A stretch of 24,019 nt of DNA. Source: a virus. The notes beneath the pieces were generated by a model, which made no database searches, was not told where the DNA came from, and was given only the letters and a program-made list of their open reading frames with translations. The stretch lies in the IMG/VR virus record IMGVR_UViG_3300032665_001702, positions 1 through 24,019 of that record; one strand, 5' to 3'. Positions 1,997-23,987 of the stretch are shown in pieces. The first letter of the stretch is position 1; the number at the start of each line of letters is the position of its first letter. Made by a program: the position numbers and the translations under genes.

Positions 1997-3106
1997 TTAA
2001 CGGATAATTTGTATATGTTCACCCGAATTCCACACTTCAAGTTTTGTACGGAGGCGTCCATCGGCCTTTAAAGATTCATATCTATTACTTGCCTTTTGTT
2101 TCCACCAAGTAATGATATTTTCAAGTTTGTGTTTCTCATAGTTTTCACCAGGTAAAAGGACATCCGTTTTACAGTTCATGTAATCAACGGTATTCTTAAA
2201 ACCATAGTCAGAAGTATAATATCTTTTCTTCTCTGTCAACTTTTTGGCGTTCTCAATCGTTAAAGAGAATGCCTCTCCTTCAGGTGTACCTTTAAGTGCT
2301 GCTTTGGTTAGAGCAATAATCTTTGTGAAGGTTCTCAACTTTCTACTTGTAGTGGATGTATCTCCAGCCAACAAATCTCCAGTAATATTCTCCACATAGT
2401 TCTTCAAATCATGGTATCTTTGTCCATGCATCATCGGTACAATATCAGATTCAGTCAAACCTTGGAAACGAATATAAGGTTTCATACCATCATATTGTGA
2501 TACGGTCTTACTGGAACCATACAAACTGGTAGTTTCAAATAGACATACATTCATGTCATATTTCTTATTACACATTTCACGAACTTCATGACTGGTGCAA
2601 ATCGCAGATAGAAGTTTACCACCTAGATAATTAAAACCGAACGGTTGTGCTGGTACAATAACGAAACCCATAACAGTAGCAGTATTGAATCGTTTAGCAG
2701 TATCAGGTTGCTGAATCCAGACCTGCCCCAAGTATTCATTACGAGGTTTCATATAGATTACTGGTGAACCCAAACGAATGAAACCTAGAACCTTTCCCGA
2801 CTTCTTCTCCATAACTGCCAACTGAACATTCTTGCCAACTGGTGCTTTGTTGATGTGTGAACTGGTAATTGCCAGTAGTGTTTCCCATTGACTGTTTGGT
2901 ATCTCACAGACATCAATTTCCATATCATTTGGATGCACAGTGAAATCAGAAAACAAATCATCTTCTGGTGGAAATAAAGAAGATGGTAACTTTTCAAGGT
3001 CTTTCAATTTCTCATCACGCATGTATTCTTCGGTATTTACAATGTTACTGAAATAATCATTGAATACTTTGGAACAATGTAATGCTTGTTCTCTGGTGAG
3101 AATCAT
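1997..3106 (-). CDS. DruA/DUF4338-like protein, 369 aa
   Basis: The ATG at 3106 overlaps the gp41 stop (ATGA). The central part, about residues 105-215, has the pattern I associate with DUF4338, the domain of the Druantia defence protein DruA: a GKVLGFIRLGSP segment, then VMGFVIVPAQPFGFNYLGGKLLSA, then a CLFETTSLYG strand, corresponding to the family's FLILP...nLaS..L...LLETF series. The C-terminal third is basic, helical and unlike DruA as I know it. Relatives seem to occur beside the helicase in marine T4-like phages, so a housekeeping role linked to replication is as likely as defence or counter-defence. The family call rests on pattern recall only. If that is wrong, it is an unknown replication-operon protein. 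Confidence 0.55.
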   Translation of the reverse strand: MILTREQALHCSKVFNDYFSNIVNTEEYMRDEKLKDLEKLPSSLFPPEDDLFSDFTVHPNDMEIDVCEIPNSQWETLLAITSSHINKAPVGKNVQLAVMEKKSGKVLGFIRLGSPVIYMKPRNEYLGQVWIQQPDTAKRFNTATVMGFVIVPAQPFGFNYLGGKLLSAICTSHEVREMCNKKYDMNVCLFETTSLYGSSKTVSQYDGMKPYIRFQGLTESDIVPMMHGQRYHDLKNYVENITGDLLAGDTSTTSRKLRTFTKIIALTKAALKGTPEGEAFSLTIENAKKLTEKKRYYTSDYGFKNTVDYMNCKTDVLLPGENYEKHKLENIITWWKQKASNRYESLKADGRLRTKLEVWNSGEHIQIIR

Positions 3107-9688: not shown

Positions 9689-9967
9689 ATGGACTTTTTT
9701 AAATTAGTTGCCGAACTAGGCTTTCCAATTGCTGCCGCTATGGCAGGTGGATACTTTGTGTTCCTGACCTTGAAATTTATCTTGGCAGGTGTCTCGTCCT
9801 CAGTCAAGGGGTTAAGTGGTATTATTACCGCCTTGGACAATCGTGTTAAAACAATGAACCATGATGTTATCAGAATTGATACTCTAATGTCAAGCGCATT
9901 GGGAGTTAAACCTGATCTGGAGCGTATTGCTCGTGCTGATGGTAAGAATGATGCGAGGAGAGATTAA
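9689..9967 (+). CDS. Small single-TM protein, 92 aa (paralogue of the next gene)
   Basis: The N-terminus MDFFKLVAELGFPIAAAMAGGYFVFLTLKFIL contains one hydrophobic span (about residues 10-33). It is followed by an amphipathic helix (40-70, including ITALDNRVKTMNHDVIRIDTLM) and a charged tail. It shares with the next protein the layout MD-(F/P)-x-(K/E)-LV-x-(E/K)-x-GFPI, a glycine/alanine TM and an 'I.ALx(N/D)R(V/I)..M(N/L).D.IR(I/L)' helix. Size and topology resemble small holin-like proteins, but the placement at the head of a curli-export operon suggests an accessory to envelope assembly. The Shine-Dalgarno is weak. The stop overlaps the next ATG (TAATG). Confidence 0.75.
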   Translation: MDFFKLVAELGFPIAAAMAGGYFVFLTLKFILAGVSSSVKGLSGIITALDNRVKTMNHDVIRIDTLMSSALGVKPDLERIARADGKNDARRD

Positions 9968-10248
9968 TGGATCCAGTAGAATTAGTTAATAAGTATGGTT
10001 TCCCTATCGTGGCCGCTGGTGGCATGGGATACCTTATATTTTATGTATGGGAGTGGGCAACAAAAGAAATTAAACCCGTATTAAGTGAAGCCAGTAATGT
10101 TTTGATTGCTTTGATTGACCGTATCAGGATGTTGGATAATGATTTGATTAGATTAAATCAGAAACTCAACGTTGTGTTGATGTTACGGGAAATTAAAGAT
10201 GAAGAAAATAAGGATTCTAAAAAGTCTAGCTCTAGCGTTATTAAGTAG
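9967..10248 (+). CDS. Small single-TM protein, 93 aa (second tandem paralogue)
   Basis: MDPVELVNKYGFPIVAAGGMGYLIFYVWEW provides one N-terminal TM (about 9-30). An amphipathic helix follows, with LIALIDRIRMLDNDLIRLNQKL (40-62), then a lysine/serine tail. It is clearly related to the preceding protein, so this is a tandem duplication with divergence. Its last 50 bases overlap the start of the CsgF-like gene. Function is not known; a holin-like or scaffolding membrane protein is possible. Its linkage to CsgF/CsgG is the best clue. Confidence 0.75.
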   Translation: MDPVELVNKYGFPIVAAGGMGYLIFYVWEWATKEIKPVLSEASNVLIALIDRIRMLDNDLIRLNQKLNVVLMLREIKDEENKDSKKSSSSVIK

Positions 10249-10660
10249 CTCCACTTTTGCAACAACTATTGCTGATTACCAGTTTAAAAGTCCATCACTT
10301 AACGGTAATGGATATGGCACATTCCAGATGGCATTGGAAAATGAGCAATATTCTCGTGCGCAAGCAATTCAACAGGCACTAGCAGCCGCACAAGCAACGG
10401 CAGCTTCAAACGCAGCCAATACTCCAATCAATCAATTTCTAACAAATTTAGAGTCTCGTATTTACGCTCAAATTTCTCAAAACTTGGCAACTGCCATGTT
10501 TGCTGGAGGTTCTGCTACTTCCGGTCAAATGAACTTCCAAGGTAATACAATTTTTTGGACCAATAATGGTACATCAATTCAATTACAAGTGACTGACAAT
10601 GTAGGTAATGTAACTACAATTAATGTTCCACTTGGATCATTCAATATTACAGGACAATAA
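10199..10660 (+). CDS. csgF: CsgF-like curli assembly protein
   Basis: The precursor is 153 aa, with a signal peptide MKKIRILKSLALALLSSSTFA cleaved near residue 21. The mature start has YQFKSPSLNGNGYGTF, matching the F(R/K)(N/S)P.FGGNP..G motif with which CsgF enters the CsgG pore. The C-terminal half has SRIYAQISQ, then GNTIFWTNNGTSIQLQVTD...TTINVP, corresponding to the CsgF DYIV.I....G.L.L.VTD....ST.I.V end. Family role: CsgF caps CsgG outside the outer membrane and couples secretion to nucleation. An alanine/glutamine-rich linker (50-75) is expanded relative to E. coli CsgF (138 aa). The start overlaps the upstream gene by 50 bases. It is preceded by GGGA, and no later start keeps the signal peptide. 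Confidence 0.88.
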   Translation: MKKIRILKSLALALLSSSTFATTIADYQFKSPSLNGNGYGTFQMALENEQYSRAQAIQQALAAAQATAASNAANTPINQFLTNLESRIYAQISQNLATAMFAGGSATSGQMNFQGNTIFWTNNGTSIQLQVTDNVGNVTTINVPLGSFNITGQ

Positions 10661-11622
10661 TGAAAAAATTATTACCAATATTTTTAATCGTATTACTTTC
10701 TGGTTGTGCTATCTCACAAAAGGTGGGATTGCTCGATGCTAAACCAGTAGTACCAAAAAATGAACTTCAAAAAGAGTTTGATGATGTTCCACCACCAGCA
10801 AACGGTAAATTAACTGTTGCGGTTTATAGTTTTCAAGATAAAACTGGACAACGTAAAGCAATTCCTGGTATTGCTAGTTTCTCTACCGCAGTTACACAAG
10901 GTGCTGATGCTTTGTTGATTCGTTCATTACAAGATGTAGGTAAAGGTACATGGTTCGAAGTTGTTGAACGTGGTAACATCGATGCTCTGACCAAAGAAAG
11001 ATTAATCATCACACAAATGAGAGCTGCATATGAAGGCAACAATGCTCAGAAATTAATGCCTTTGACTTTTGCTGGTATTATCTTAGAAGGTGGTATTATT
11101 GGTTATGATACTGGCTTAGAATCTGGTGGTGTTGGTTATAATTTCTTAGGTATAGGACCAACCACACAGTACTCCAAAGACATCGTAACAGTAAGTCTAC
11201 GTGCTATCTCAGTTAATACTGGTAAAGTCTTGGCAACTGTCACCGTAACTAAGGTAATCTATTCTACTGCTGATGCAATGGCAATATTTAAGAGTATAGA
11301 TCCATCTGGTTTTTCTAACCTAGGATCACAACTATTCAATTCAAGTACCGGATCCACTGGTGCTGCTGCAGCAATATTCCAATTTGAAGCAGGATTAACA
11401 ATTAACGAAGCAACAACAATAGCATTAAAATCAACGATTGAGGCCGCAGTCATTGAATTAATTAAAGAAGGCCAAAGAAAAGGTGTTTGGGATTATTCAC
11501 AGATTAAAGAAGTTCCAATTAGTGCAATTCCTACAAAAACACCAACAATTCCACTTGGTATGTCACCATCTAAAGGCACACCAGCGGATGTAGAAGCAAA
11601 GATGGGTGTAGTAAAACAATAA
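10660..11622 (+). CDS. csgG: CsgG-like outer-membrane curli secretion channel lipoprotein
   Basis: A lipobox LLSGC places the lipidated cysteine at residue 16. The mature protein follows CsgG closely. VAVYSFQDKTGQRK (53-66) matches VSVYNIQDETGQFK; FSTAVTQGADALLIRSLQD matches FSTAVPQSATAMLVTALKD; ILEGGIIGYDTGLESGGVGYNFLGIG (141-166) matches the IMVEGSIIGYESNVKSGGVG region. Family role: a nonameric outer-membrane pore for unfolded curlins. The constriction Y-N-F of E. coli appears to be I68, S73 and F74 here, so only the phenylalanine is kept. At 320 aa it is longer than E. coli CsgG (277), because of a Ser/Gly/Ala insertion near 215-235 and a C-terminal extension. It is coupled to CsgF by TAATG. 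Confidence 0.95.
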   Translation: MKKLLPIFLIVLLSGCAISQKVGLLDAKPVVPKNELQKEFDDVPPPANGKLTVAVYSFQDKTGQRKAIPGIASFSTAVTQGADALLIRSLQDVGKGTWFEVVERGNIDALTKERLIITQMRAAYEGNNAQKLMPLTFAGIILEGGIIGYDTGLESGGVGYNFLGIGPTTQYSKDIVTVSLRAISVNTGKVLATVTVTKVIYSTADAMAIFKSIDPSGFSNLGSQLFNSSTGSTGAAAAIFQFEAGLTINEATTIALKSTIEAAVIELIKEGQRKGVWDYSQIKEVPISAIPTKTPTIPLGMSPSKGTPADVEAKMGVVKQ

Positions 11623-11634
11623 AAGGAAAAAGAA

Positions 11635-12543
11635 ATGAAAAAAAGTCTAGCCAAATTTGTTATGATGACGCTAGCCGTTCTGGTGAATTACTCGTATGCG
11701 GGTGATAATACCATTTATATTAATCAATCCGGCAGTAACTCTAATGTTTCAGTTACACAAAACGGAGCAGGTGATGCAGTAGAAGGTGTACAAAGCACAG
11801 GTTCTAGTGCTACTACTCCAGCAGTTATTGTTGGTAATAGTAATAATGTAACTGTAAACCAAGTAGGTACTGGTGATACATTACAACTTGGAATTCAAAC
11901 AACTATTGCTAATGGTATTTCCAACGGCAACAATTATAGTTACTCTATTACTGGTAGCAATTCTACTGCTGTAATTAACAGTAACAATGATGGATCAGGA
12001 ACAAGTGCAAGTAATAATATTAACGTAAACCAAACAGGTAATACATCTAATTTAAATGTTAATCTATTGGGAACAGGCAACAACTTGACAGCAACAACTG
12101 CTGGTGGTACAAGCAATAGTGTAGTGGCCACAATTAACGGTACAGGTAATAACGATACTGTTACTATGAATGGTGGTGGTGCAAATAGTTTTACTTTAAA
12201 TCAAGGTAACTCTACAACTGCCGCAACAACTAGCAATGTTACATTAAGTTCTACTGGTGCAAGTAATACTTTTGGAATTACTCAAACTGGTGGTACTAAT
12301 GGTAATACTGTTACTGTTGGTGGTTATAGTGCTACTACAAATACTCCTAGTGGAGCTTTGAATGGTTCTAGTAACACGGTTACTGTATCTCAAACAGGTG
12401 CAGCAGATAATACCTTTATATTAGGATTAACTGGAAGCACCAACACAGTTAGTGTAACACAATCGGCAAGCTCTGGCAACAACACTACTAATATTCAAAC
12501 CAGCGGTAGTAATAATAGTTGGACAATTCACCAGACACATTAA
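11635..12543 (+). CDS. Curlin-repeat protein (CsgA/CsgB-like), 302 aa
   Basis: A signal peptide (cleaved near A22) precedes about 280 residues of Asn/Gly/Ser/Thr-rich curlin-type repeats. Examples are NTIYINQSGSNSNVSVTQNG (25-44), NNVTVNQVGTG (70-80), NNINVNQTGN (127-136), NTFGITQTGG (211-220) and SNTVTVSQTGA (246-256). The chain ends in SWTIHQTH. These follow the curlin pattern N-x-(V/I)-x-(V/I)-x-Q-x-G with internal Q/N ladders, so a beta-helical amyloid subunit is expected. It is longer and less regular than E. coli CsgA (151 aa). It lies immediately after CsgG with AGGAA before the ATG, so it is the likely substrate of the pore. Whether it behaves as major subunit or nucleator cannot be told. 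Confidence 0.88.
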   Translation: MKKSLAKFVMMTLAVLVNYSYAGDNTIYINQSGSNSNVSVTQNGAGDAVEGVQSTGSSATTPAVIVGNSNNVTVNQVGTGDTLQLGIQTTIANGISNGNNYSYSITGSNSTAVINSNNDGSGTSASNNINVNQTGNTSNLNVNLLGTGNNLTATTAGGTSNSVVATINGTGNNDTVTMNGGGANSFTLNQGNSTTAATTSNVTLSSTGASNTFGITQTGGTNGNTVTVGGYSATTNTPSGALNGSSNTVTVSQTGAADNTFILGLTGSTNTVSVTQSASSGNNTTNIQTSGSNNSWTIHQTH

Positions 12544-12704
12544 TGTCTAATTTACTTCACATGTATCAGGCCTGGTGTTCAGGTAATGACAATACTGATC
12601 CAAAAGCCTTTATAGAGTTTGTAGCAAATCGTAACAAGCAAAGTATTGAAAGTGTAATGAAAGAATTGGAAAATTGTAAATGGTTCAAACAACGAAACGA
12701 TTAA
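12543..12704 (+). CDS. Small hypothetical protein, 53 aa
   Basis: It begins at the ATG sharing a base with the curlin stop (TAATG) and ends 25 bases inside the FecR-domain gene. A longer start 24 bases upstream would lie within the curlin gene and is less likely. The protein (MSNLLHMYQAWCSGND...) has no signal peptide or TM. It appears helical, with C, W and several acidic/basic residues, and ends ELENCKWFKQRND. It is one of the few operon products expected in the cytoplasm. Function is unknown; a regulatory or chaperone role would be speculation. Confidence 0.6.
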   Translation: MSNLLHMYQAWCSGNDNTDPKAFIEFVANRNKQSIESVMKELENCKWFKQRND

Positions 12705-13825
12705 AATTATTGGTGGCCACATCATTTGTGGTCACCTTTAATTGCTTTGCTGCCGTTGGTACTATAACAGAACAAGTAAACACCCCTCCCAACATTCAAC
12801 GAGCAAAATCCACATTAACTGGCGCCAAAGGTACTGGTGTCGAAATGGCGGATACCATCAATACAAAACAAGGTAAAGTCGGCATTGTATTTGCTGATGA
12901 CACAAAGGTACAAGTAAATGAAAACTCCAAGCTGGTTATTGACGAGTTTGTTTATGATCCAAAAAGTAAAACATCAGGTAAGTTGGCGCTTAATATGGCT
13001 GCTGGTACGGTGCGTTACGCTTCTGGTGCGATTGCTCATAATAATCCTAACTCGGTTGCTATCAATACTCCAACAGCAACTGTGGCGGTTCGTGGTACCG
13101 ATTTCACCGCCACAGTAGATGAATTAGGTGAAAGTACATTTGTTTTACTTCCTTCTTGTCCACGAAAGAATATGTTACCTGACGAGATAGAGAGAGAATG
13201 TAAAACTGGTAAAATTGAAGTTAGTAATGAATCGGGAACAGTTACATTGGATATGGCATTTCAAGGCACTAAAGTTACATCTAGAAATGTGGCACCAAGT
13301 AGACCAGTTACATTACATTTAACAGAAGATGCCATTAGTAATATGTTGATCTTGGCACCACCACAAGAAATCAAAGCTGCACAAAAACAACGTGAAGAAG
13401 AAAAGCAAATTGCTCAAAGTGCCTTGAGTCAAGACTTTTTAAAAGGTGTTGATTTGAGTAGTGTTCTTGCTGCTGAAAATACTCAAATTTATTCCAACCA
13501 ACTTCAACGTAACTTTTTAGACAATGAATTTCTGGCCAATGTATTACAGTTATTGAACGAACAGTTAGCACAAGAATTTGGTGATTTGTTGGCACCAAAA
13601 AAGAACACTTTATTACCAGATTATAATTCTAAAACTGGTGTAGTTGCAACAGTAGATGCAATATCAGTTCAATTGTGTCGGTCTGATTCAGGTAACAATA
13701 CTTCATGTATCACAACACCCAAAACTCAAAATGCCACCGTCAGTCAAACTCAATCTGGTAATGTAACTATTACAAACCGTATTAATGCTGGTGGAAATAC
13801 TTTTATAACAACAAAGCAGAACTAA
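12680..13825 (+). CDS. Periplasmic FecR-domain protein with curlin-like tail
   Basis: A signal peptide (cleaved near A24-A25) is followed by a FecR domain at about 45-150. Its hallmarks are GTGVEMADTINTKQGKVGIVF, DDTKVQVNENSKLVI, GKLALNMAAGTVRYASG and AINTPTATVAVRGTDFTATV. Family knowledge: the FecR beta-solenoid domain senses or relays signals in the periplasm, and free-standing exported FecR proteins are often encoded beside CHASE2 cyclases, as here. There is no N-terminal anti-sigma segment or TM, unlike classical FecR. The middle (225-320) is helical and glutamine-rich. The last 40 residues (NATVSQTQSGNVTITNRINA) look like a degenerate curlin repeat. C160, C173 and a C-terminal pair could form disulphides. 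Confidence 0.85.
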   Translation: MVQTTKRLKLLVATSFVVTFNCFAAVGTITEQVNTPPNIQRAKSTLTGAKGTGVEMADTINTKQGKVGIVFADDTKVQVNENSKLVIDEFVYDPKSKTSGKLALNMAAGTVRYASGAIAHNNPNSVAINTPTATVAVRGTDFTATVDELGESTFVLLPSCPRKNMLPDEIERECKTGKIEVSNESGTVTLDMAFQGTKVTSRNVAPSRPVTLHLTEDAISNMLILAPPQEIKAAQKQREEEKQIAQSALSQDFLKGVDLSSVLAAENTQIYSNQLQRNFLDNEFLANVLQLLNEQLAQEFGDLLAPKKNTLLPDYNSKTGVVATVDAISVQLCRSDSGNNTSCITTPKTQNATVSQTQSGNVTITNRINAGGNTFITTKQN

Positions 13826-13826
13826 C

Positions 13827-14504
13827 ATGAAAAAATTATTAATCTTCTTATCTTTAATTTCAACTATAGCAATGGCTGATTCGTTTGATGCTTCAGTTGG
13901 TGCCTTATCCGATTATCGTTTTCGTGGTATCAGTCAAAGTGATTTAAAACCTAGTGCCATATCACAAGAAGAATATTCTGCTGATAATGGTATTTGGTTA
14001 GGAAACAAACTTGATACTGTTAGTAAACAAGAATATTTAAATGGTACAGGTATTGAGTCTGACTATTATATTGGATGGACCCATAAATTTGATGATATTA
14101 AAATATATGTGGGAGATTATGAATACACTTATCCTGGTGCCACAAACTATAATACAAATGAAGTATTTGCTCAATTGAGATATTCAAATATTACTTTAAA
14201 ATATTATCGTAGTTTAACTGATTACTTTGCAATACCAGGCACAACTGGTACTCAGTATTATAGTGTAGATTATTATTTACCTATCAAAGATGTTACATTT
14301 GTTTCTCATGTTGGTCACACACAAAATGCTTATTCATATTCGGATTGGAAGTTTGGTCCAACAATGAACATTTATGGTGTTGATGCTTCACTATCATATT
14401 ATTGGAATTCTGGTATGAGTTCCGATTTTAAATTAATGAATACTGTAAATGGCAATCAACTTTATCGTAACTCTGTTGTATTAGGATTAAGTAAATCATT
14501 CTAA
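13827..14504 (+). CDS. TorF/Gcw_chp-type outer-membrane beta-barrel protein
   Basis: A signal peptide, MKKLLIFLSLISTIAMA, is followed by ASVGALSDYRFRGISQSD (22-39), the diagnostic opening of the Gcw_chp / TorF putative porin family (SDYRFRGISQS). Alternating strands rich in Y, F and W follow. The chain ends in LGLSKSF with C-terminal Phe, the BAM targeting signal of outer-membrane proteins. At 225 aa it is in the family's range. It lies one base after the FecR gene and shares TAATG with the second curlin gene. Possible jobs are a surface porin, an anchor for exported fibres, or superinfection exclusion through receptor replacement. The sequence does not decide between these. Confidence 0.85.
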   Translation: MKKLLIFLSLISTIAMADSFDASVGALSDYRFRGISQSDLKPSAISQEEYSADNGIWLGNKLDTVSKQEYLNGTGIESDYYIGWTHKFDDIKIYVGDYEYTYPGATNYNTNEVFAQLRYSNITLKYYRSLTDYFAIPGTTGTQYYSVDYYLPIKDVTFVSHVGHTQNAYSYSDWKFGPTMNIYGVDASLSYYWNSGMSSDFKLMNTVNGNQLYRNSVVLGLSKSF

Positions 14505-15823
14505 TGAAACGATTTTTATTATTACTTCTTTTTTTCTGTTCTTCTGCCTTTGCTCAATTTTCAAGTGTTGAGTTTGGTGCAGCACAAATTGCCGACACAC
14601 AATGGGATACAGGTAATTGTTTAAGTTCGAATACATGTACCATATACAGTAAAAATTTAGGTGGCACTTATGAAACAGGAAGTTGGACACCATTATCATC
14701 AGGCCAGTATGTTAGTTTTGTTTCTAGTGGAAATTCAACATATCCTTGGCAGATGAATTTATATAATAGTAATGGATCATTGAATAGAGTTTTGGGTATA
14801 GGTCAAATTATTGTACGAGGAACATATAATGGAAACTACTATATGTTCTTTACAAATGCAAATTATAATGGTACATTATTGAGTGCTCAAGTTGGTATGA
14901 CAGGTTCATCTGGATTTACATTTACAGGAACAGAGAATCCAACAGTTGCACAAACCAATGCGGCCGCTGCAAGTTGGACCAATACACCATTGACTGGTGG
15001 ACAAACTTATATACCAGCACCAACGTATGTTAGTGGTATTACTGGTACACAACAAACACAAGTTAATACTGTTAATGCTAGATTGGCCGCTTTAACAAAT
15101 TCAACACCTAATCAAATTTATATTAATCAAGTTGGTTCTGGTGATATACACAATTATACACAATCAGGACCAGGTAATATTATTGACGGTGCAACATACA
15201 TCAATTCAACTCCCGGTTACACACAAGTTGCTTCTATTACTGGTGGATCAAATCAAGTAAAGATTAGACAAGGCGATCCACAATCTAAATCAGGTAAAAA
15301 CATTATTGATTTAAATGTAACCGGATCAGGTAACATTTTGAACTTAAATCAAGGAACCGATTCTGCTGGTACATATACCGGTTTAGATACTGGTGGACAT
15401 TATCAATATGATTATATTAATGGTGCAACAAATAGTGTAACTGTTGTACAAGAAAATACTGGTGCAAACGAAGGTATGTACTCATCATTATATCTTAATG
15501 GCAATTTGAATACTGTTGGTATCACACAAACTGGCACAGCTAAGATGCAATTGTTTGCATCAGTTACAGGTAACAGTAATACACTAACAACAAGTCAGAC
15601 AGGAACAGGTGCACATTATTTAAGTGTTACTGAAACTGGTAATGGAAATTCAGCAGTGGTTACTCAAAATAACAGTAGTGCTCCTGGTGCTAATGCTGCC
15701 ACGATAGTTCTAAATAACAACGGAGCACCTGCTTCGGTAAATGTAACACAAACCGGTGGACAAACTTATAACATTACACAAACTTGTGTAACTACATGTG
15801 GAACTGTAACAGTACATCAATGA
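14504..15823 (+). CDS. Curlin-repeat protein with long unique N-terminal region, 439 aa
   Basis: A signal peptide is cleaved near A17. Residues 18-200 form a non-repetitive, beta-rich domain with two cysteines (C39, C45) that I do not recognise. From about 203 the chain becomes curlin-like: NQIYINQVGSGD, NILNLNQGT, NSVTVVQENTG, NTVGITQTGT, NTLTTSQTGTG and NSAVVTQNN. It ends TQTCVTTCGTVTVHQ with another cysteine pair (C428, C432). The end VTVHQ echoes WTIHQTH of the first curlin. A fibre-tip adhesin, nucleator or cell-attached subunit is plausible, with the N-terminal domain giving specificity. The gene overlaps the porin stop and the cyclase start, so the proteins are made together. Confidence 0.82.
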   Translation: MKRFLLLLLFFCSSAFAQFSSVEFGAAQIADTQWDTGNCLSSNTCTIYSKNLGGTYETGSWTPLSSGQYVSFVSSGNSTYPWQMNLYNSNGSLNRVLGIGQIIVRGTYNGNYYMFFTNANYNGTLLSAQVGMTGSSGFTFTGTENPTVAQTNAAAASWTNTPLTGGQTYIPAPTYVSGITGTQQTQVNTVNARLAALTNSTPNQIYINQVGSGDIHNYTQSGPGNIIDGATYINSTPGYTQVASITGGSNQVKIRQGDPQSKSGKNIIDLNVTGSGNILNLNQGTDSAGTYTGLDTGGHYQYDYINGATNSVTVVQENTGANEGMYSSLYLNGNLNTVGITQTGTAKMQLFASVTGNSNTLTTSQTGTGAHYLSVTETGNGNSAVVTQNNSSAPGANAATIVLNNNGAPASVNVTQTGGQTYNITQTCVTTCGTVTVHQ

Positions 15824-17823
15824 AAAAATTATTACTTTCTCCTTGGACAGCAATACTAACTCTTGTTTTATTGGTGTTTATTCGTATACAGGATCCAACT
15901 TTTGTTGAGTCGGTAAGACTTCGTTATTTTGATACTCTAATTACTTCCAAACCAGTAACACAATCACAAATTCATGTTGTTAATATTGATGATGCCACCG
16001 TGGCACAAAAAGGTCAATTCCCATTTCCAAGAGGTGAATACTCAAAGATTATTGAAGATTTATATAAACGAAATGCTGGACTTGTTGTATTTAATATTTT
16101 TATGCCAGATAAAGATAGATTCTCACAAGATTCTAATTTGGCTAGATCACTTAGATTATATCCTGCCATACTTCCTCAGATTGGTAGTTCTGATGTATCC
16201 ACCACTAAAGTAATACCTTTTAGACCAGGTGTTTCAGTAATTGGCCAAGGTACTGCTGGCGTAAGTTATAATTCTATTTTACCCAATGTGAAAGCTATAA
16301 ATGAAAGCGCTGCTGGTATTGGTGTTGTTAATACTCTCCCCGAAATTGATGGCGTCACCAGACGTGTGCCAATGGTCGTTCAATCCCAAGGATTGTTATA
16401 CCCTTCAATCTCTCTTGAAACACTCAGAGTTGCCTCAGGAGACCCTAGTTTCCAAGTTAAACTCAACGACCTTGGAGTACAAGCAGTTAGAATTCCAAAG
16501 TTTGGAAAAATCGACACAGACAGCTTGGGTAGAATTTGGGTTGATTGGTCCTCAAGACCAATTGAACACTCTGCTATCAACTTACCATCCGATTTCCAAG
16601 GTGGAATTGTCATTGTCGGACTTACAGCCAAAGGGCTTAACAACCCTGGCGCAACAAGTGTGGGGTCAACCTATCCTCATTACTTACAAGCGGCTATATT
16701 AGATACTGTTACATCAGGTACTATTATTTCTAGACCAGATTGGTCTGATGGTGCCGAATTATTATACACCTTTATTTTTTGTATAATATCACTTTTCTTT
16801 ACGAGGTATACACATGGTTACATCGCAATCATCGTTATGGCAATTGGATCCTTTTTCTTCGGCCATGAATTATTCAATCGATACAATTACCTACTTGATG
16901 TTACTTTCCCACTTTGCACCATTACTCTTGTTTTCACACATGGCTATGTTGTCAAATTCCTGTCGGAATTAAAACAAAAACTTCAAATTAAAAAACAGTT
17001 TGGTACATATCTATCGCCTGCTTTGGTAGAAAAGTTACAAAAGAATCCAGAGTTACTCCGACTTGGGGGAGAATCACGGGAACTGTCTATTATGTTTACT
17101 GACGTAAGAGGCTTCACCACCATCTCTGAACACTATGGAGAAGATGTACAAGGTCTCACTAAGATTATGAATCGATACATGACTGCTATGACAGCAAAGA
17201 TTATCGAAAATAATGGTACTTTGGATAAGTATATTGGCGATGCTCAAATGGCTTTCTGGAATGCTCCATTAGATGAACCGCAACACGCCAAAATGGCCGT
17301 TAAAACTGCACTACAAATGATGGAGAGTTTAGATGAATTTAACGATGAAGTTACTAAAGAGGGTGTGCCAGCTTTTGGCATGGGTCTTGGCATTAATACT
17401 GGTACCGTTGTTGTTGGTAATATGGGCAGTGACCAGCGGTTTGACTATACTTGTCTTGGAGATTCTGTTAATCTTGCATCCCGTCTTGAGGGACAAAGTA
17501 AACCGTATGGTGTCAGAATTATTCTTGGACCCATTACCGCCAAGCAAGTAAAAGATGAATATCCTGTAACTGAATTAGATTGTATTGCTGTTAAAGGTAA
17601 GACTCAAGGTGTGAAGATATTTACACTAGAAAAATCTAATTGGAAACACGAAGAATATCTTGATGCCTACTACAATGGTGATTGGGTTAAAGCGTTGGAA
17701 TATGCTAAGAAATTAGCGGAAGAAAATAATGGTTTGAAGCATTATTACGAGAACATGATTGAAAGACTGGAAGAAGGAGTTCCATCCACATGGGATGGAA
17801 CCTATAGAGCTACTAGTAAGTAA
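15820..17823 (+). CDS. CHASE2-domain class III adenylate cyclase, 667 aa
   Basis: This is a membrane sensor expected to make cAMP. The start is the ATG at 15820, overlapping the curlin stop (ATGA). An N-terminal TM (8-23) leads to a periplasmic CHASE2 domain (about 30-300, with HVVNIDDATVAQKGQFPFPR and GIGVVNTLPEIDGVTRRVP). Three TMs follow (about 312-328, 331-348, 356-378) and then the cyclase domain (about 415-605). The metal aspartates are D428 (MFTDVRGF) and D474 (YIGDA). The adenine-recognition pair is K470 and T544, as in class IIIb adenylate cyclases. The transition-state residues N551 and R555 are in SVNLASRLE. All catalytic residues are present, so it should be active. A short helical tail follows. 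CHASE2 cyclases beside FecR genes are known in bacteria but unexpected in a phage. Confidence 0.93.
   Translation: MKKLLLSPWTAILTLVLLVFIRIQDPTFVESVRLRYFDTLITSKPVTQSQIHVVNIDDATVAQKGQFPFPRGEYSKIIEDLYKRNAGLVVFNIFMPDKDRFSQDSNLARSLRLYPAILPQIGSSDVSTTKVIPFRPGVSVIGQGTAGVSYNSILPNVKAINESAAGIGVVNTLPEIDGVTRRVPMVVQSQGLLYPSISLETLRVASGDPSFQVKLNDLGVQAVRIPKFGKIDTDSLGRIWVDWSSRPIEHSAINLPSDFQGGIVIVGLTAKGLNNPGATSVGSTYPHYLQAAILDTVTSGTIISRPDWSDGAELLYTFIFCIISLFFTRYTHGYIAIIVMAIGSFFFGHELFNRYNYLLDVTFPLCTITLVFTHGYVVKFLSELKQKLQIKKQFGTYLSPALVEKLQKNPELLRLGGESRELSIMFTDVRGFTTISEHYGEDVQGLTKIMNRYMTAMTAKIIENNGTLDKYIGDAQMAFWNAPLDEPQHAKMAVKTALQMMESLDEFNDEVTKEGVPAFGMGLGINTGTVVVGNMGSDQRFDYTCLGDSVNLASRLEGQSKPYGVRIILGPITAKQVKDEYPVTELDCIAVKGKTQGVKIFTLEKSNWKHEEYLDAYYNGDWVKALEYAKKLAEENNGLKHYYENMIERLEEGVPSTWDGTYRATSK
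17779..17801 (+). other. Perfect 9-bp hairpin at the 3' end of the cyclase gene
   Basis: GTTCCATCC and GGATGGAAC pair around the loop ACATG, 22 bases before the cyclase stop. No T-run follows on either strand, so this is not a standard terminator. It could stall polymerase or protect the mRNA 3' end where the rightward operon meets the leftward genes. It is within coding sequence. Confidence 0.4.
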
Positions 17824-18033: not shown

Positions 18034-19047
18034 CTAAAGGAAATATTTGGACCATATTTTTCTGGTCTTGTTAGTATAATGTTTAAGGTTATGTTGATTC
18101 CAAAACACATTTAATCTAGGGTATTTATATGCTTTAGATAATGCATTACAGATATCCTTTGAATCCGTACAATCGGCATTAGCTGTTGACCATGGAATTT
18201 CTTCACTTCCAACCAATGGAACACCCTGTGATACCAGATCGGCACCAACGATATTGAAGGTTTCAGAGAAATTACATTGCATTCCAATGTCCATCCTAGA
18301 ACATAATTCCAAGAATTCTTCTCTTGGAGTCCATTGATGATTGATTAACATATGTCCTCTAGAATGAATCTGTTGAAACAGTCCTTTGAGGTTATTGATA
18401 GATGAATTACCATTCATTTCAATACGACCAGCATTCACATGGAATCTTAGTTTTTTACCAATCTTCTCAGCAAATTCGATAGCAGCAAATGCTTGTACTA
18501 AATGATTTTTTAATGGACGAATTGCACCAAAACAAGATATATCAACCCATTCTTTATCTCTGTTGAATTTTTTATATTTGTATTCTTGTGGATAAAAATT
18601 AGGTAAATAAATTACTTTCTTTGTTCCCAAATAGAGTTGAATTTCTCTCAACATTCTAGGTGCATTACAAGCAATCTTCACATTTTTAAATGTTGCATAA
18701 TCGCCTAACCAGTCCATGGCCATACCTTCACCTGCCATAAATGGCATTTCAGAATGCAAACGAATAATCCATTGAACACTTGGATGCAATTTTTGGAGAA
18801 TATTGAATTTGGTCGGAACAACCCATAATGCCTCAATGATAACATGAGTGGGTTTGTGTTTGTTGACTAGTCTATCAATACAATTGTTATCAATAGCAAC
18901 TTCTAAAACCGAATTGAATCCTGCTTCAACCAACATGTCGTTCATAAACTTAGCAGAGTTATATAAACCTGTACTTAATCCAATATGAGAATGTACTTTA
19001 GCGTTGTAATCTTCTCTGCGTTTGAGTATGAATAATATTTTTGACAT
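18034..19047 (-). CDS. GT-B glycosyltransferase (GT4-like), 337 aa
   Basis: I start at the ATG at 19047 (MSKILFILKRREDY). The longer start at 19092 would lie upstream of the late promoter box that faces this gene. The N-terminal Rossmann-like half (1-150) includes the LSTGLYNSAKFMNDML helix. The C-terminal half has CFGAIRPLKN (172-181) and the nucleotide-sugar region NFSETFNIVGADLVSQGVPLVGS (259-281), matching the E-x7-E / GvPvv pattern of GT4 enzymes (E262 and a downstream acidic position). Family role: transfer of a hexose from UDP/GDP-sugar. The target could be modified phage DNA or a surface glycan. It lies downstream of the tRNA cluster. Confidence 0.78.
   Translation of the reverse strand: MSKILFILKRREDYNAKVHSHIGLSTGLYNSAKFMNDMLVEAGFNSVLEVAIDNNCIDRLVNKHKPTHVIIEALWVVPTKFNILQKLHPSVQWIIRLHSEMPFMAGEGMAMDWLGDYATFKNVKIACNAPRMLREIQLYLGTKKVIYLPNFYPQEYKYKKFNRDKEWVDISCFGAIRPLKNHLVQAFAAIEFAEKIGKKLRFHVNAGRIEMNGNSSINNLKGLFQQIHSRGHMLINHQWTPREEFLELCSRMDIGMQCNFSETFNIVGADLVSQGVPLVGSEEIPWSTANADCTDSKDICNALSKAYKYPRLNVFWNQHNLKHYTNKTRKIWSKYFL
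18122..18129 (-). promoter_or_regulatory. T4-type late promoter box upstream of the 66-aa gene
   Basis: An exact TATAAATA on the minus strand lies inside the 3' part of the GT-B gene, about 98 bp before the ATG of the 66-aa gene. It would give that gene its own late transcript. An octamer can occur by chance in AT-rich DNA. Confidence 0.4.
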
Positions 19048-19081
19048 GACGAACCAATATGAGTTTTGTGAATTAAAACTA

Positions 19082-19089
19082 TATTTATA
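19082..19089 (-). promoter_or_regulatory. T4-type late promoter box for the GT-B glycosyltransferase
   Basis: An exact TATAAATA on the minus strand lies 34 bp upstream of the chosen ATG at 19047, in the short gap after the tRNA array. Position and exact match make this the best late-promoter candidate in the window and support the shorter GT-B start. Confidence 0.65.
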
Positions 19090-19117
19090 CAATGGAAATA
19101 TTTCGATTTTATTACAT

Positions 19118-21392: not shown

Positions 21393-21466
21393 TGGCATCC
21401 CGCTAGGGAATCGAACCCCAACTAAGGCGTTTGGAGTGCCTTGTGCTACCACTACACCAGCGAGAA
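21393..21466 (-). tRNA. tRNA-Trp(CCA), 5' end overlapped by homing-endonuclease gene
   Basis: The anticodon arm is AGGCA-CTCCAAA-CGCCT (an A-C mismatch closes the loop). The T-arm is TGGGG-TTCGATT-CCCTA, with G73 and encoded CCA; Trp tRNAs have G73. The acceptor is TTCTCGC/GCGGGAT, with a T-T mismatch at 1-72 and a T-G pair at 4-69. The first 15 bases are also the last five codons of the GIY-YIG gene, which may explain the imperfect acceptor. Confidence 0.8.
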
Positions 21467-22114
21467 CTTGATTTTTCTTCCTTTACTCCAACCTTCTGGA
21501 ATATTTTCTTCTTTTTTTATCTTTCTATTTTCAACACCATTTGTAATCCACATTGTACCATATTGTGTATTTTTTTCTCCATCATGTTTGCCTTGATGTG
21601 AGTTGGACATTTTTAGTTTAGTTTCATTTTTATGTTTTTTACCTGGCCATATAGTTTTTAATCTACTAATTGTTCTTTCTCTATATTCAGAATCAGTTTT
21701 ATATTTTTCTTTTAAACCTTCAGAAATTGATTGTTTATATTGTTCATCAAAATCTTTATCATTCTTTCTTTTTTCTTGTAAATTCTTTGCCATCATTTTT
21801 AAATGTGGTAATTGGTGTGTATGTAAATCGGGATTATTATTATTAAAATCCCAACCACCTTGGCCACCTTTTTTTAAATTATAAGAATGTTTACCTAATT
21901 CAACCAATTCTTTTTCTTTCAAATACATTTCTTCCGAAGAATCTGCTTCATAAATTATATCTTTAGTAAATTTATCAACTCCATATTTGTTAATGGCTTT
22001 CTTAATTATTTTACCTGAACCCATATAACCATCATTTTTATCATTGGTCTTATGTGCTCCAATATAAATTTTACCATTTACTTTATTAGTAATTTTATAG
22101 ATTAAATAAAACAT
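21452..22114 (-). CDS. GIY-YIG homing endonuclease, 220 aa
   Basis: This is a free-standing mobile endonuclease, SegA-like. The start is the ATG at 22114 with GGAG upstream. The N-terminal nuclease domain (1-95) has LIY (4-6) as a variant of GIY, YIG (17-19) and the G-Y-M-G-S-G-K segment (32-38), followed by the ELGKHSYNLKKGGQGGW motif. The middle is a charged helical linker. The C-terminal NUMOD3-like DNA-binding motif (GKKHKNETKLKMSNSHQGKH) comes before a final WITNG segment. It lies between tRNA-Ser and tRNA-Trp and ends inside tRNA-Trp. Its codon use is even more AT-rich (A/T third positions, poly-Asn) than its neighbours, in line with separate mobility. Confidence 0.9.
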   Translation of the reverse strand: MFYLIYKITNKVNGKIYIGAHKTNDKNDGYMGSGKIIKKAINKYGVDKFTKDIIYEADSSEEMYLKEKELVELGKHSYNLKKGGQGGWDFNNNNPDLHTHQLPHLKMMAKNLQEKRKNDKDFDEQYKQSISEGLKEKYKTDSEYRERTISRLKTIWPGKKHKNETKLKMSNSHQGKHDGEKNTQYGTMWITNGVENRKIKKEENIPEGWSKGRKIKFSLV

Positions 22115-22182
22115 CTTATACTCCAAAAAGTTATCATATTATTATATATAAAAGTTCAAATCTCACACTCTCTGGTTAAAAC

Positions 22183-22550: not shown

Positions 22551-23987
22551 TTAGGTCCACACACGGAAGTTTTCATACTTACATGGGTTAGATTTATCGA
22601 ACTCACGGTAGAATAGTGAATTGGTATCTTGTGATGGAGTCCATTTTGAAAACACAGTCACTAATGGTTCCCAATACATATCACCGATTGCCAAGATTTC
22701 TTCGAATGGTAACATTTCTGGCTCAACATAACCTTCACGTGGATTGTTAATCATCCAAACGATGGCACCTAACATAGAACCAGCAACCTGCATTGAAGTA
22801 GCATTTTCGCCTTCAACCAATTTACGAGCACCGTGAATATCTAATTGTGAACCATGCCACATACAGAAGTCATCACCAATTAACAATACACCCAACTCAT
22901 CCATACCTGAAACAATTTCATCTTTCAGAATACGTTGGTCTTTTTGTAAATCTAATTCGTTGCCACGCATCTCATGTAATGAAGCAATAGCAGCATCACA
23001 AGGTTGATAAACATAATACACAGATGGTCTAAATGATTTATCTTTAGTTTCAAAATATTGAGACATTGTAACAGACTCAGAATGTTGAATACAATAACCA
23101 TTATATTGACCACCATCTGGTACCCATGAACGCATCATAGTTACACAACCTGGTTGAGTTAAGTAAGCAGCAGTACCTTGAGACTTACCACCTTCTGGAT
23201 GTTTATCTTCGTGTGTACCCCAACCCATTTCTGTTGGTGCTCTACCTTCTGCCCAAAATCCTTCACAAGACCATGTGTTGGTAAATTCTTGTTTAGTTTT
23301 TGGTTCATCGATAACTTGTTGGTCACGTTCAGCAATATGAACTACTTTAACACCAAGTGACTTCATCAACTGAGCCCATTCTTCTTTAGTAGAAGGTGTT
23401 GTAACTTTTTTACCATTCTTGGCAGCAAGTTTCAACAAAGCACGTTTAGTCAAATGTGTTACATAACCTGGATTTGCACCGTGTGTTACACAACAAGTAG
23501 GTGCATCATGTAGATATTCATCCATTGCTTCACGAACTACATTATGAGTATGAAACAAAGTTCTCTCATTTAATTTTGTAATAGTTTCATCAGGATGATG
23601 TTCCCAACGTTCAAGTGATGTGTCAATTTCCATCACTCCGTTTTCCATACACCACTCTAACAAAGCTTGTGCTTCAATGTTTAATGAAGCATTGATAATC
23701 ATATCACCTTCACCAACATAAGTGCCAATAACTTTTTTGTAATTGCCAGGTGTAATCTCTTTACGAACGTAGTTTACACCAGAACCTGCATGGCGTCTTA
23801 GAAAGAGTGACCTGTGGTCATCACGTTCTATAACTGTAACATTCTTGGGATCTACTACGATGTGACGGAGAACAACTGGAAGAATTGCTTGTCCGACTGA
23901 ACCATATCCGATGATAAGAATTTTACCATCAAATTGTGCATACTTTTCGTATTTGGTTTTGTCGAATTCTTTAAATGGAATAGGCAT
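22551..23987 (-). CDS. hss: Homospermidine synthase, 478 aa
   Basis: This is an NAD-dependent enzyme that makes sym-homospermidine from putrescine (or putrescine plus spermidine). The N-terminal Rossmann fold has KILIIGYGSVGQAILP (22-37, GxGxxG). The saccharopine-dehydrogenase-like body follows, with ITPGNYKKVIGTYVGEGDMIINASLNI, CCVTHGANPGYVTHLTKRALL, GCVTMMRSWVPDGGQYNGY, and near the end GSMLGAIVWMINNPREGYVEPE. The length equals bacterial homospermidine synthases (about 475-480 aa), and the gene appears intact. The ribosome site is weak. It is unusual in phages and is probably an auxiliary metabolic gene supplying polyamine for DNA packing or host stress. The upstream promoter lies outside the window. 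Confidence 0.92.
   Translation of the reverse strand: MPIPFKEFDKTKYEKYAQFDGKILIIGYGSVGQAILPVVLRHIVVDPKNVTVIERDDHRSLFLRRHAGSGVNYVRKEITPGNYKKVIGTYVGEGDMIINASLNIEAQALLEWCMENGVMEIDTSLERWEHHPDETITKLNERTLFHTHNVVREAMDEYLHDAPTCCVTHGANPGYVTHLTKRALLKLAAKNGKKVTTPSTKEEWAQLMKSLGVKVVHIAERDQQVIDEPKTKQEFTNTWSCEGFWAEGRAPTEMGWGTHEDKHPEGGKSQGTAAYLTQPGCVTMMRSWVPDGGQYNGYCIQHSESVTMSQYFETKDKSFRPSVYYVYQPCDAAIASLHEMRGNELDLQKDQRILKDEIVSGMDELGVLLIGDDFCMWHGSQLDIHGARKLVEGENATSMQVAGSMLGAIVWMINNPREGYVEPEMLPFEEILAIGDMYWEPLVTVFSKWTPSQDTNSLFYREFDKSNPCKYENFRVWT

Follow-up and report, generated by a model that had tools for sequence, protein, structure and literature searches.

Curli genes have been described in phages before. 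A curli operon was reported in pelagimyophages in 2020 (PMC7029224), and a 2022 study (PMC9599517) describes pelagiphage curli regions with curlins, FecR, histidine kinase, and adenylate cyclase, viral curli and FecR being recorded at 65 of 65 GOV2.0 stations and also as transcripts. The Methylophilales phage Melnitz was described without csgA/csgB (PMC9004378). These three reports guess differently at why phages of tiny free-living bacteria devote 5-8 kb to curli. Here, we analyzed the curli operon of IMG/VR virus record IMGVR_UViG_3300032665_001702. The record comprises 24,019 bases in total, and the window, i.e. the whole stretch of DNA that was analyzed, covers all of it. The operon lies on the plus strand (9689-17823) and combines curli genes with genes for FecR, an outer-membrane porin, and a CHASE2 adenylate cyclase. 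The phage module is real, widespread, and already published, and the porin in the window is unusual. A curlin-like C-terminal tail on the viral FecR proteins is new, as far as our searches reach.

The order CsgF-CsgG-curlin-FecR-(curlin)-adenylate cyclase is common to the window and the pelagiphage type VIII secretion module (PMC9599517 and, in part, the earlier PMC7029224). Two features set the window apart from the module of PMC9599517: a Gcw_chp porin encoded between FecR and curlin 2, and a pair of membrane proteins of ~92 residues at the place where one or two histidine kinases precede the published module. The words "porin" and "CHASE" are absent from the main text of PMC9599517, in which no mention was found of a CHASE2 sensor or of a curlin-like tail on FecR. 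A tblastn search of 50,697 phage records gave near-full-length matches to the cyclase and FecR only in Melnitz isolates and Pelagibacter phage HTVC008M (36-40% identity). Melnitz and HTVC008M hold the full set, including the membrane-protein pair, at ~36-41% protein identity to the window (41% for CsgG of Melnitz), and are annotated in the order CsgF-CsgG-curlin-FecR-curlin(-like)-cyclase; unlike the window, they are without the porin. Two curlin-repeat genes are annotated in Melnitz, despite its description in PMC9004378. An earlier note on this DNA had presented the locus as its best candidate for an undescribed system, with no phage counterpart known to its author. Neither claim stands, because HTVC008M and Melnitz carry the set and viral FecR and adenylate cyclase had been published together with curli in 2022 (PMC9599517). 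This was the only paper returned by a literature search for phage, curli, adenylate cyclase, and FecR together.

Viral scans with the cyclase and FecR as queries yielded more than 500 relatives each, and the best 80 of these were retained per query. CsgF, CsgG, FecR, and cyclase occurred together on 109 of 158 distinct viral contigs. Among loci whose sequence extends far enough on the side in question (termed roomy), those anchored on FecR contained CsgG in 67 of 67 cases and a cyclase within 6.5 kb, usually on the same strand, in 36 of 39. Both FecR and CsgG were present in 55 of 56 roomy loci anchored on the cyclase. The content and order of the module recur far above chance, and the search for the ordered set in viral metagenomes that had been proposed in the earlier note thus gave recurrent synteny. 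The viral order of CsgF, CsgG, curlin, and FecR with the cyclase downstream is also that of the window. A T4 portal protein was found in 9 of the 12 larger records tested, these nine measuring 141-357 kb. The module is therefore spread among T4-like phages, very large ones included. The membrane-protein pair was present in 57 of 63 roomy viral loci, never with fewer than two copies, and was located upstream in 34 loci and downstream in 23; among named phages it is restricted to those bearing the curli module. The pair is part of the module. Its identification as histidine kinases was ruled out by size (92-93 residues) and by the lack of a kinase domain in Pfam and NCBIfam searches.

FecR (12680..13825, plus strand; PF04773, E=2e-10; phrog_37870 over the full length) is a predicted exported protein composed of a signal sequence, a FecR beta domain at residues ~27-200, a helical linker, and a C-terminal stack of curlin-like strands at residues 321-379. 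Foldseek likened the fold of the FecR domain to the periplasmic signaling domain of PupR. The domain directly follows the signal-peptide-like segment, which is not the FecI/FecR anti-sigma plan with its N-terminal cytoplasmic sigma-binding domain, and no sigma factor was matched among the operon genes in Pfam or NCBIfam. The FecR domain was common to all 60 aligned viral FecRs. Outside this domain, the most conserved positions include Gln380 (60/60) and Gln358 (56/60), which are 21-22 residues apart; in curlins, the spacing between glutamines peaks at 11 and at 22/23 residues. The curlin kernel reads N-x-psi-x-psi-x-Q-x-G-x-x with two repeats per 22-23 residues (PMC10192328).

A weight matrix was built on curlins from the same operons as the FecRs. 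In 95 of 124 FecRs, the best curlin-like match lay within the C-terminal 45 residues, compared with 25% for shuffled tails. The figure was 1 of 28 for bacterial FecRs outside curli loci, part of this set being clipped by locus ends. The strict kernel was found in 48 of 60 FecR tails, whereas 8.9 were expected by shuffling, and in the control tails of 0/113 CsgF, 4/122 CsgG, and 5/128 cyclase proteins. An AlphaFold2 model of the FecR placed six strands in the tail, ~11 residues apart (predicted local distance difference test score ~91-95), with the pitch also predicted for curlin 1, whose model consists of ~20 short strands spaced mostly 11-12 residues apart. Among the bacterial matches listed for the FecR profile, only the curli-linked copy of Caulobacteraceae matched over its full length, and the rest ended before the tail. 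The curlin-like tail suggests that FecR may sense the fiber itself. It would provide a concrete molecular link between fiber genes and cyclase genes, and the resulting sensing model can be tested with three proteins.

The open reading frame (ORF) of the cyclase can also be read from TTG 15784, but its start is most likely ATG 15820, because the proteins of its relatives begin with MKKLLLSPW. The class III enzyme (15820..17823, plus strand; PF05226, E=9e-35; PF00211 Guanylate_cyc, E=9e-22; phrog_35576, 968 bits) has the architecture of a CHASE2 receptor cyclase, with CHASE2 between an N-terminal and a mid-protein membrane segment and the cyclase domain at the C terminus, and its relatives in the PDB are cyclases. 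Asp440, Lys482, Asp486, Thr556, Asn563, and Arg567 are all retained, i.e. both metal-binding aspartates, the substrate-specifying lysine and threonine, and the transition-state asparagine and arginine. Judged by this residue set, the enzyme appears catalytically complete, as had been claimed for it, and is a predicted producer of cyclic AMP (cAMP). Asp440, Lys482, Asp486, and Arg567 are kept in 121 of 121 family cyclases, and the full set with Thr/Ser556 and Asn563 in 85 of 121, the window among them. Residues 556 and 563 switch together: either Thr/Ser occurs with Asn (85 proteins) or Asp with Ser (36 proteins), mixed cases number 0 of 121, and the tree requires at least three changes. Melnitz has Asp/Ser where the window has Thr/Asn, and Thr/Ser with Asn was found in 29 of 29 non-curli bacterial cyclases. 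A separate phage protein of 100-130 residues, often located 5' of csgF, matches the CHASE2 cyclase's C-terminal tail (e.g. L087:6025-6372, L066:1577-1948, and L084:2583-2888).

The gene set was also found in bacteria. A contig of a Caulobacteraceae metagenome-assembled genome (L164) carries csgF, csgG, curlin, curlin, fecR, and CHASE2 cyclase genes consecutively on one strand. The flanking genes encode glycosyltransferases, a PycTM-domain protein, an S9 peptidase, and a TonB-dependent receptor. The PycTM gene (L164:12506-13096; Pycsar effector membrane domain, PF18967, E=9e-25) follows immediately downstream of the operon. The six genes recur, between other neighbors, in a second Caulobacteraceae genome (G421, locus L218). 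These were the 2 of 24 alphaproteobacterial csgF loci with FecR and cyclase nearby, some of the others being cut by contig ends. According to PMC9599517, such regulator genes do not lie within bacterial type VIII secretion operons. The chromosomal operons of Caulobacteraceae contradict this statement, a result that is new as far as our searches reach, and correct the view of the regulators as a viral addition. Three other metagenome-assembled contigs (L165, L166, and L168) were rejected as bacterial copies; they contain the phage membrane-protein pair and are probably misbinned viral contigs.

In the cyclase tree, a single clade with a support of 100 united the module cyclases and set them apart from 29 non-curli CHASE2 cyclases of Alphaproteobacteria, and both Caulobacteraceae copies stood beside the viral loci L079, L080, and L083. 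They paired with L080 in the FecR and CsgG trees. A purely viral cyclase clade was not rejected by the approximately unbiased test (p=0.41), which rules out the nesting among viral cyclases as proof of transfer from phage to bacterium. The finding of the same cluster in a bacterium as a recent host pickup had been named beforehand as a refutation. The cluster does exist in two Caulobacteraceae, but their copies are no recent pickup, because cyclase identity is 44% within a large old clade. That the phage of the window recently picked up a single bacterial operon by accident is extremely improbable, although the two chromosomes with all six gene families side by side might point that way: the nearest relatives of the window are viral (cyclase identity of 74-82% to viral contigs against 44% to Caulobacteraceae), and one large clade spanning many phages and the recurrent synteny contradict it.

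An envelope/fiber-to-cAMP loop is the best-fitting mechanism; as suggested in the earlier note, it might reprogram host catabolism or lysis timing. The locus may be a curli fiber export operon with a built-in sensor of fiber or envelope, in which FecR would report the state of curlin or fiber to CHASE2 and tune host cAMP; we hold this reading tentatively, at a little less than an even chance. CsgG and CsgF would form the exit through the outer membrane and the curlins the fiber. FecR would be exported to the periplasm, where its tail could bind curlin, either as waiting subunits or as the fiber base, by beta-strand pairing, while the FecR domain would touch the cyclase at its periplasmic CHASE2 domain. 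The state of export or assembly would then alter cAMP synthesis, and the signal would be read by cAMP receptors of the host. The readout is placed in the host because a cyclic nucleotide-binding domain was found in 0 of 12 related phage records. An outer-membrane barrel, Gcw_chp in the case of the window, might supply input from outside in a few phages, as NsrA does for Sinorhizobium CHASE2 cyclases.

By hand tally, and not counting G001, FecR adjoins a CHASE2 cyclase without curli in ~27 of the 240 alphaproteobacterial genomes sampled, and the same adjacency, with FecR as an outer-membrane protein, is known from Campylobacterota (PMC9239204). The statement of the earlier note that such pairs exist in bacteria is therefore correct, and signaling from FecR to CHASE2 is the natural reading because the pairing is common there. 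Biofilm formation is controlled by an operon of FecR and a CHASE2 kinase in Burkholderia (PMC5192318), NsrA/CyaK is a precedent for an outer-membrane barrel combined with a CHASE2 cyclase (PMC7529298), and a Sinorhizobium cyclase without CHASE2 produced cAMP constitutively (PMC5498481). A tail able to read curlin would offer a reason for the presence of the FecR-cyclase pair in a curli operon. We infer that FecR binds curlin and contacts CHASE2, in which direction the control acts, that cAMP is made, and that the host responds to it with some benefit. A more specific proposal, which we consider possible but somewhat less probable, is an amyloid-sensing relay: FecR as a curlin mimic would monitor subunits or fiber and switch CHASE2, so that cAMP in the infected cell tracks fiber export, and the relay would also work in Caulobacteraceae, which would have the operon through transfer. 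If true, it would constitute a checkpoint of fiber state for both phages and bacteria.

Several observations weigh against the sensing model. A direct structural match of the FecR tail to CsgA was not obtained with Foldseek. By inspection, the tail of the window itself (GNTFITTKQN) is degenerate and fails the strict kernel, and for this reason the claim of a curlin-like tail is made for the FecR family. Asp556 and Ser563 replace Thr/Asn in 36 of 121 family cyclases, that of Melnitz included, and the activity of these 36 is uncertain. Melnitz cultures did not show clumping (PMC9004378). The model also has to assume a cAMP receptor in the host.

The main rival to the sensing model is a CsgB-like nucleator or anchor, in which the tail of FecR seeds or tethers the fiber, the FecR domain fixes it to the cell, and the cyclase acts separately. 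This would agree with the curlin kernel and pitch of the tail, the position of FecR between the two curlins, the fact that a separate CsgB was not identified, and the presence of FecR-like domains in bacterial surface proteins of great length (up to ~6,900 residues as open frames). We regard it as unlikely, since bacterial FecR-CHASE2 cyclase pairs without curli favor signaling, although the two roles are not exclusive. It has further been proposed in PMC7029224 and PMC9599517 that curli bring about aggregation or superinfection exclusion, infected cells being coated for "sibling capture" or shielding from other phages; FecR and the cyclase would then be inherited regulatory baggage of little importance. 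The complete fiber gene set speaks for this, but a cyclase that is kept so regularly beside FecR in roomy loci, with invariant metal-binding residues, is unlike baggage, and we consider the proposal improbable. We rate as distinctly improbable a gated outer-membrane pore of CsgG/CsgF that times lysis, with FecR and the cyclase in control of the gate; the pore itself was proposed by Buchholz et al. 2022 for Melnitz on the basis of synteny and CsgF structure (PMC9004378). The adjoining pair of small membrane proteins is vaguely holin-like (weak PHROG match). However, the premise of this proposal was a supposed lack of curlins, which are present in the window and in Melnitz, and the curlin-like FecR tail implies that fiber material matters.

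The operon begins with a tandem pair of paralogous small membrane proteins, A (9689..9967; 92 residues, one membrane segment, conserved tail PD.DRI.R.DGK.DAR.D; phrog_18771, E=1e-34) and B (9967..10248; 93 residues; phrog_18771, E=2e-33, and alignment), both on the plus strand like all genes that follow. CsgF (10199..10660; PF10614, E=1e-14; phrog_35372) has an uncertain start codon, its ORF overlapping the preceding gene. CsgG, the outer-membrane curli secretion channel (10660..11622; PF03783, E=3e-41), has a lipoprotein-like N terminus. Curlin 1, the fiber subunit (11635..12543), matched PF07012 over the cut-off, and a fold search against the PDB gave no significant match for it. Next to FecR and the Gcw_chp/TorF-family outer-membrane porin (13827..14504; PF09694, E=1e-21; TIGR02001 over cut-off) lies a second curlin-like repeat protein (14504..15823; 439 residues). 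Its N/Q-rich repeats lie in the second half of the sequence. A Pfam curlin match was absent, and the protein was identified from these repeats and from its slot, which is that of Melnitz gp103, annotated as "curlin associated repeat protein." FecR, porin, second curlin, and CHASE2 cyclase were thus confirmed on the plus strand where the earlier note had located them, by Pfam matches and, for curlin 2, by repeats and slot. The extent of 12680-17823 given there holds for these genes, but the module begins earlier, at 9689, with the two membrane proteins.

The FecR stop at 13825 is followed by the porin ATG at 13827, the porin stop and the curlin 2 ATG share 14504, and the curlin 2 stop at 15823 overlaps the cyclase ATG at 15820. 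The sole larger intergenic gap measures 136 bases and lies 5' of FecR. Because the genes abut or overlap, the arrangement fits a single transcript. Signal-peptide-like N termini were seen for FecR, porin, and both curlins. Unlike the canonical bacterial curli operon, no CsgE gate or CsgD regulator was matched among the operon ORFs in Pfam and NCBIfam. The late-promoter motif CTAAATA showed no enrichment (1 match against 5.7 expected), scores of sigma-70 and terminator scans were hardly above those of shuffles, and Rfam matched tRNAs alone and no riboswitch.

The porin scored 75.2 against a cut-off of 47.15 bits in NCBIfam (TIGR02001) and 78.5 against 24 in Pfam. A viral scan with this single protein gave no relatives, and a scan with a two-sequence porin alignment gave two loci, one of them L087. 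Gcw_chp lies between FecR and the second curlin in the window, L087/L283, and L284. The porin does belong to the set in the window, as had been claimed, but with an occurrence in three phages it is not constant, and it was ruled out as an integral part of the module in general. At other loci, an exported protein of 664-677 residues ending in phenylalanine sits between FecR and cyclase, and an autotransporter beta-domain was significant in two of four such proteins tested. Outer-membrane barrels enter this region repeatedly, yet they are optional. Insertions between curlin and cyclase that encode a calcineurin-like phosphoesterase and a group 1 glycosyltransferase are seen in many relatives (L042:7102-9001, L098:12307-14047, L114, L124, and L284) and suggest possible envelope modification within the same operon. 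In a related phage, a DNA/RNA non-specific endonuclease with a signal-peptide-like N terminus (L040:6978-7733) lies between FecR and cyclase.

The window is a piece of a T4-like myophage genome, as indicated by its T4-type replication genes, its ten tRNAs, and a DNA polymerase nearest to cyanomyophages (~50%). A T4-type DNA polymerase, a UvsX-like recombinase, and a DnaB-like helicase are encoded; the replication genes are on the minus strand and reach 9584. Also on the minus strand are a gene for a protein with a DruA-like stretch (1997-3106; PF14236, E=4e-10; phage-conserved as phrog_19197), a homing-endonuclease-like GIY-YIG/NUMOD3 gene with tRNA genes on both sides (21452-22126), and an enzyme resembling saccharopine dehydrogenase/homospermidine synthase, possibly an auxiliary metabolic gene (22551-23987). 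A gene for 352 residues (18034-19092, minus strand) had no match in Pfam, and its relative with the N terminus FILKRREDY adjoins the curli module in L087/L283 and L284.

Outside phages, three systems can be compared with the window. In Sinorhizobium NsrA-CyaD/CyaK (PMC7529298 and PMC13001267), an outer-membrane barrel feeds a CHASE2 adenylate cyclase and may be likened to the window by arrangement; NsrA is a large barrel protein (barrel at residues ~600-1200), not Gcw_chp, and there is no curli. The bacterial FecR-CHASE2 units (Campylobacterota, PMC9239204; Burkholderia BiofilmReg, PMC5192318) share an exported FecR-domain protein together with a CHASE2 enzyme. They are without curli genes, and the non-curli alphaproteobacterial FecRs examined are without the curlin-like tail. 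The Caulobacteraceae operon differs from the window in its bacterial flanks, in the position of both curlins before FecR, and in having neither membrane-protein pair nor porin. It consists of the same gene families on one strand, shares a clade with the window in all three trees (cyclase, FecR, and CsgG), and represents a bacterial relative usable for testing function.

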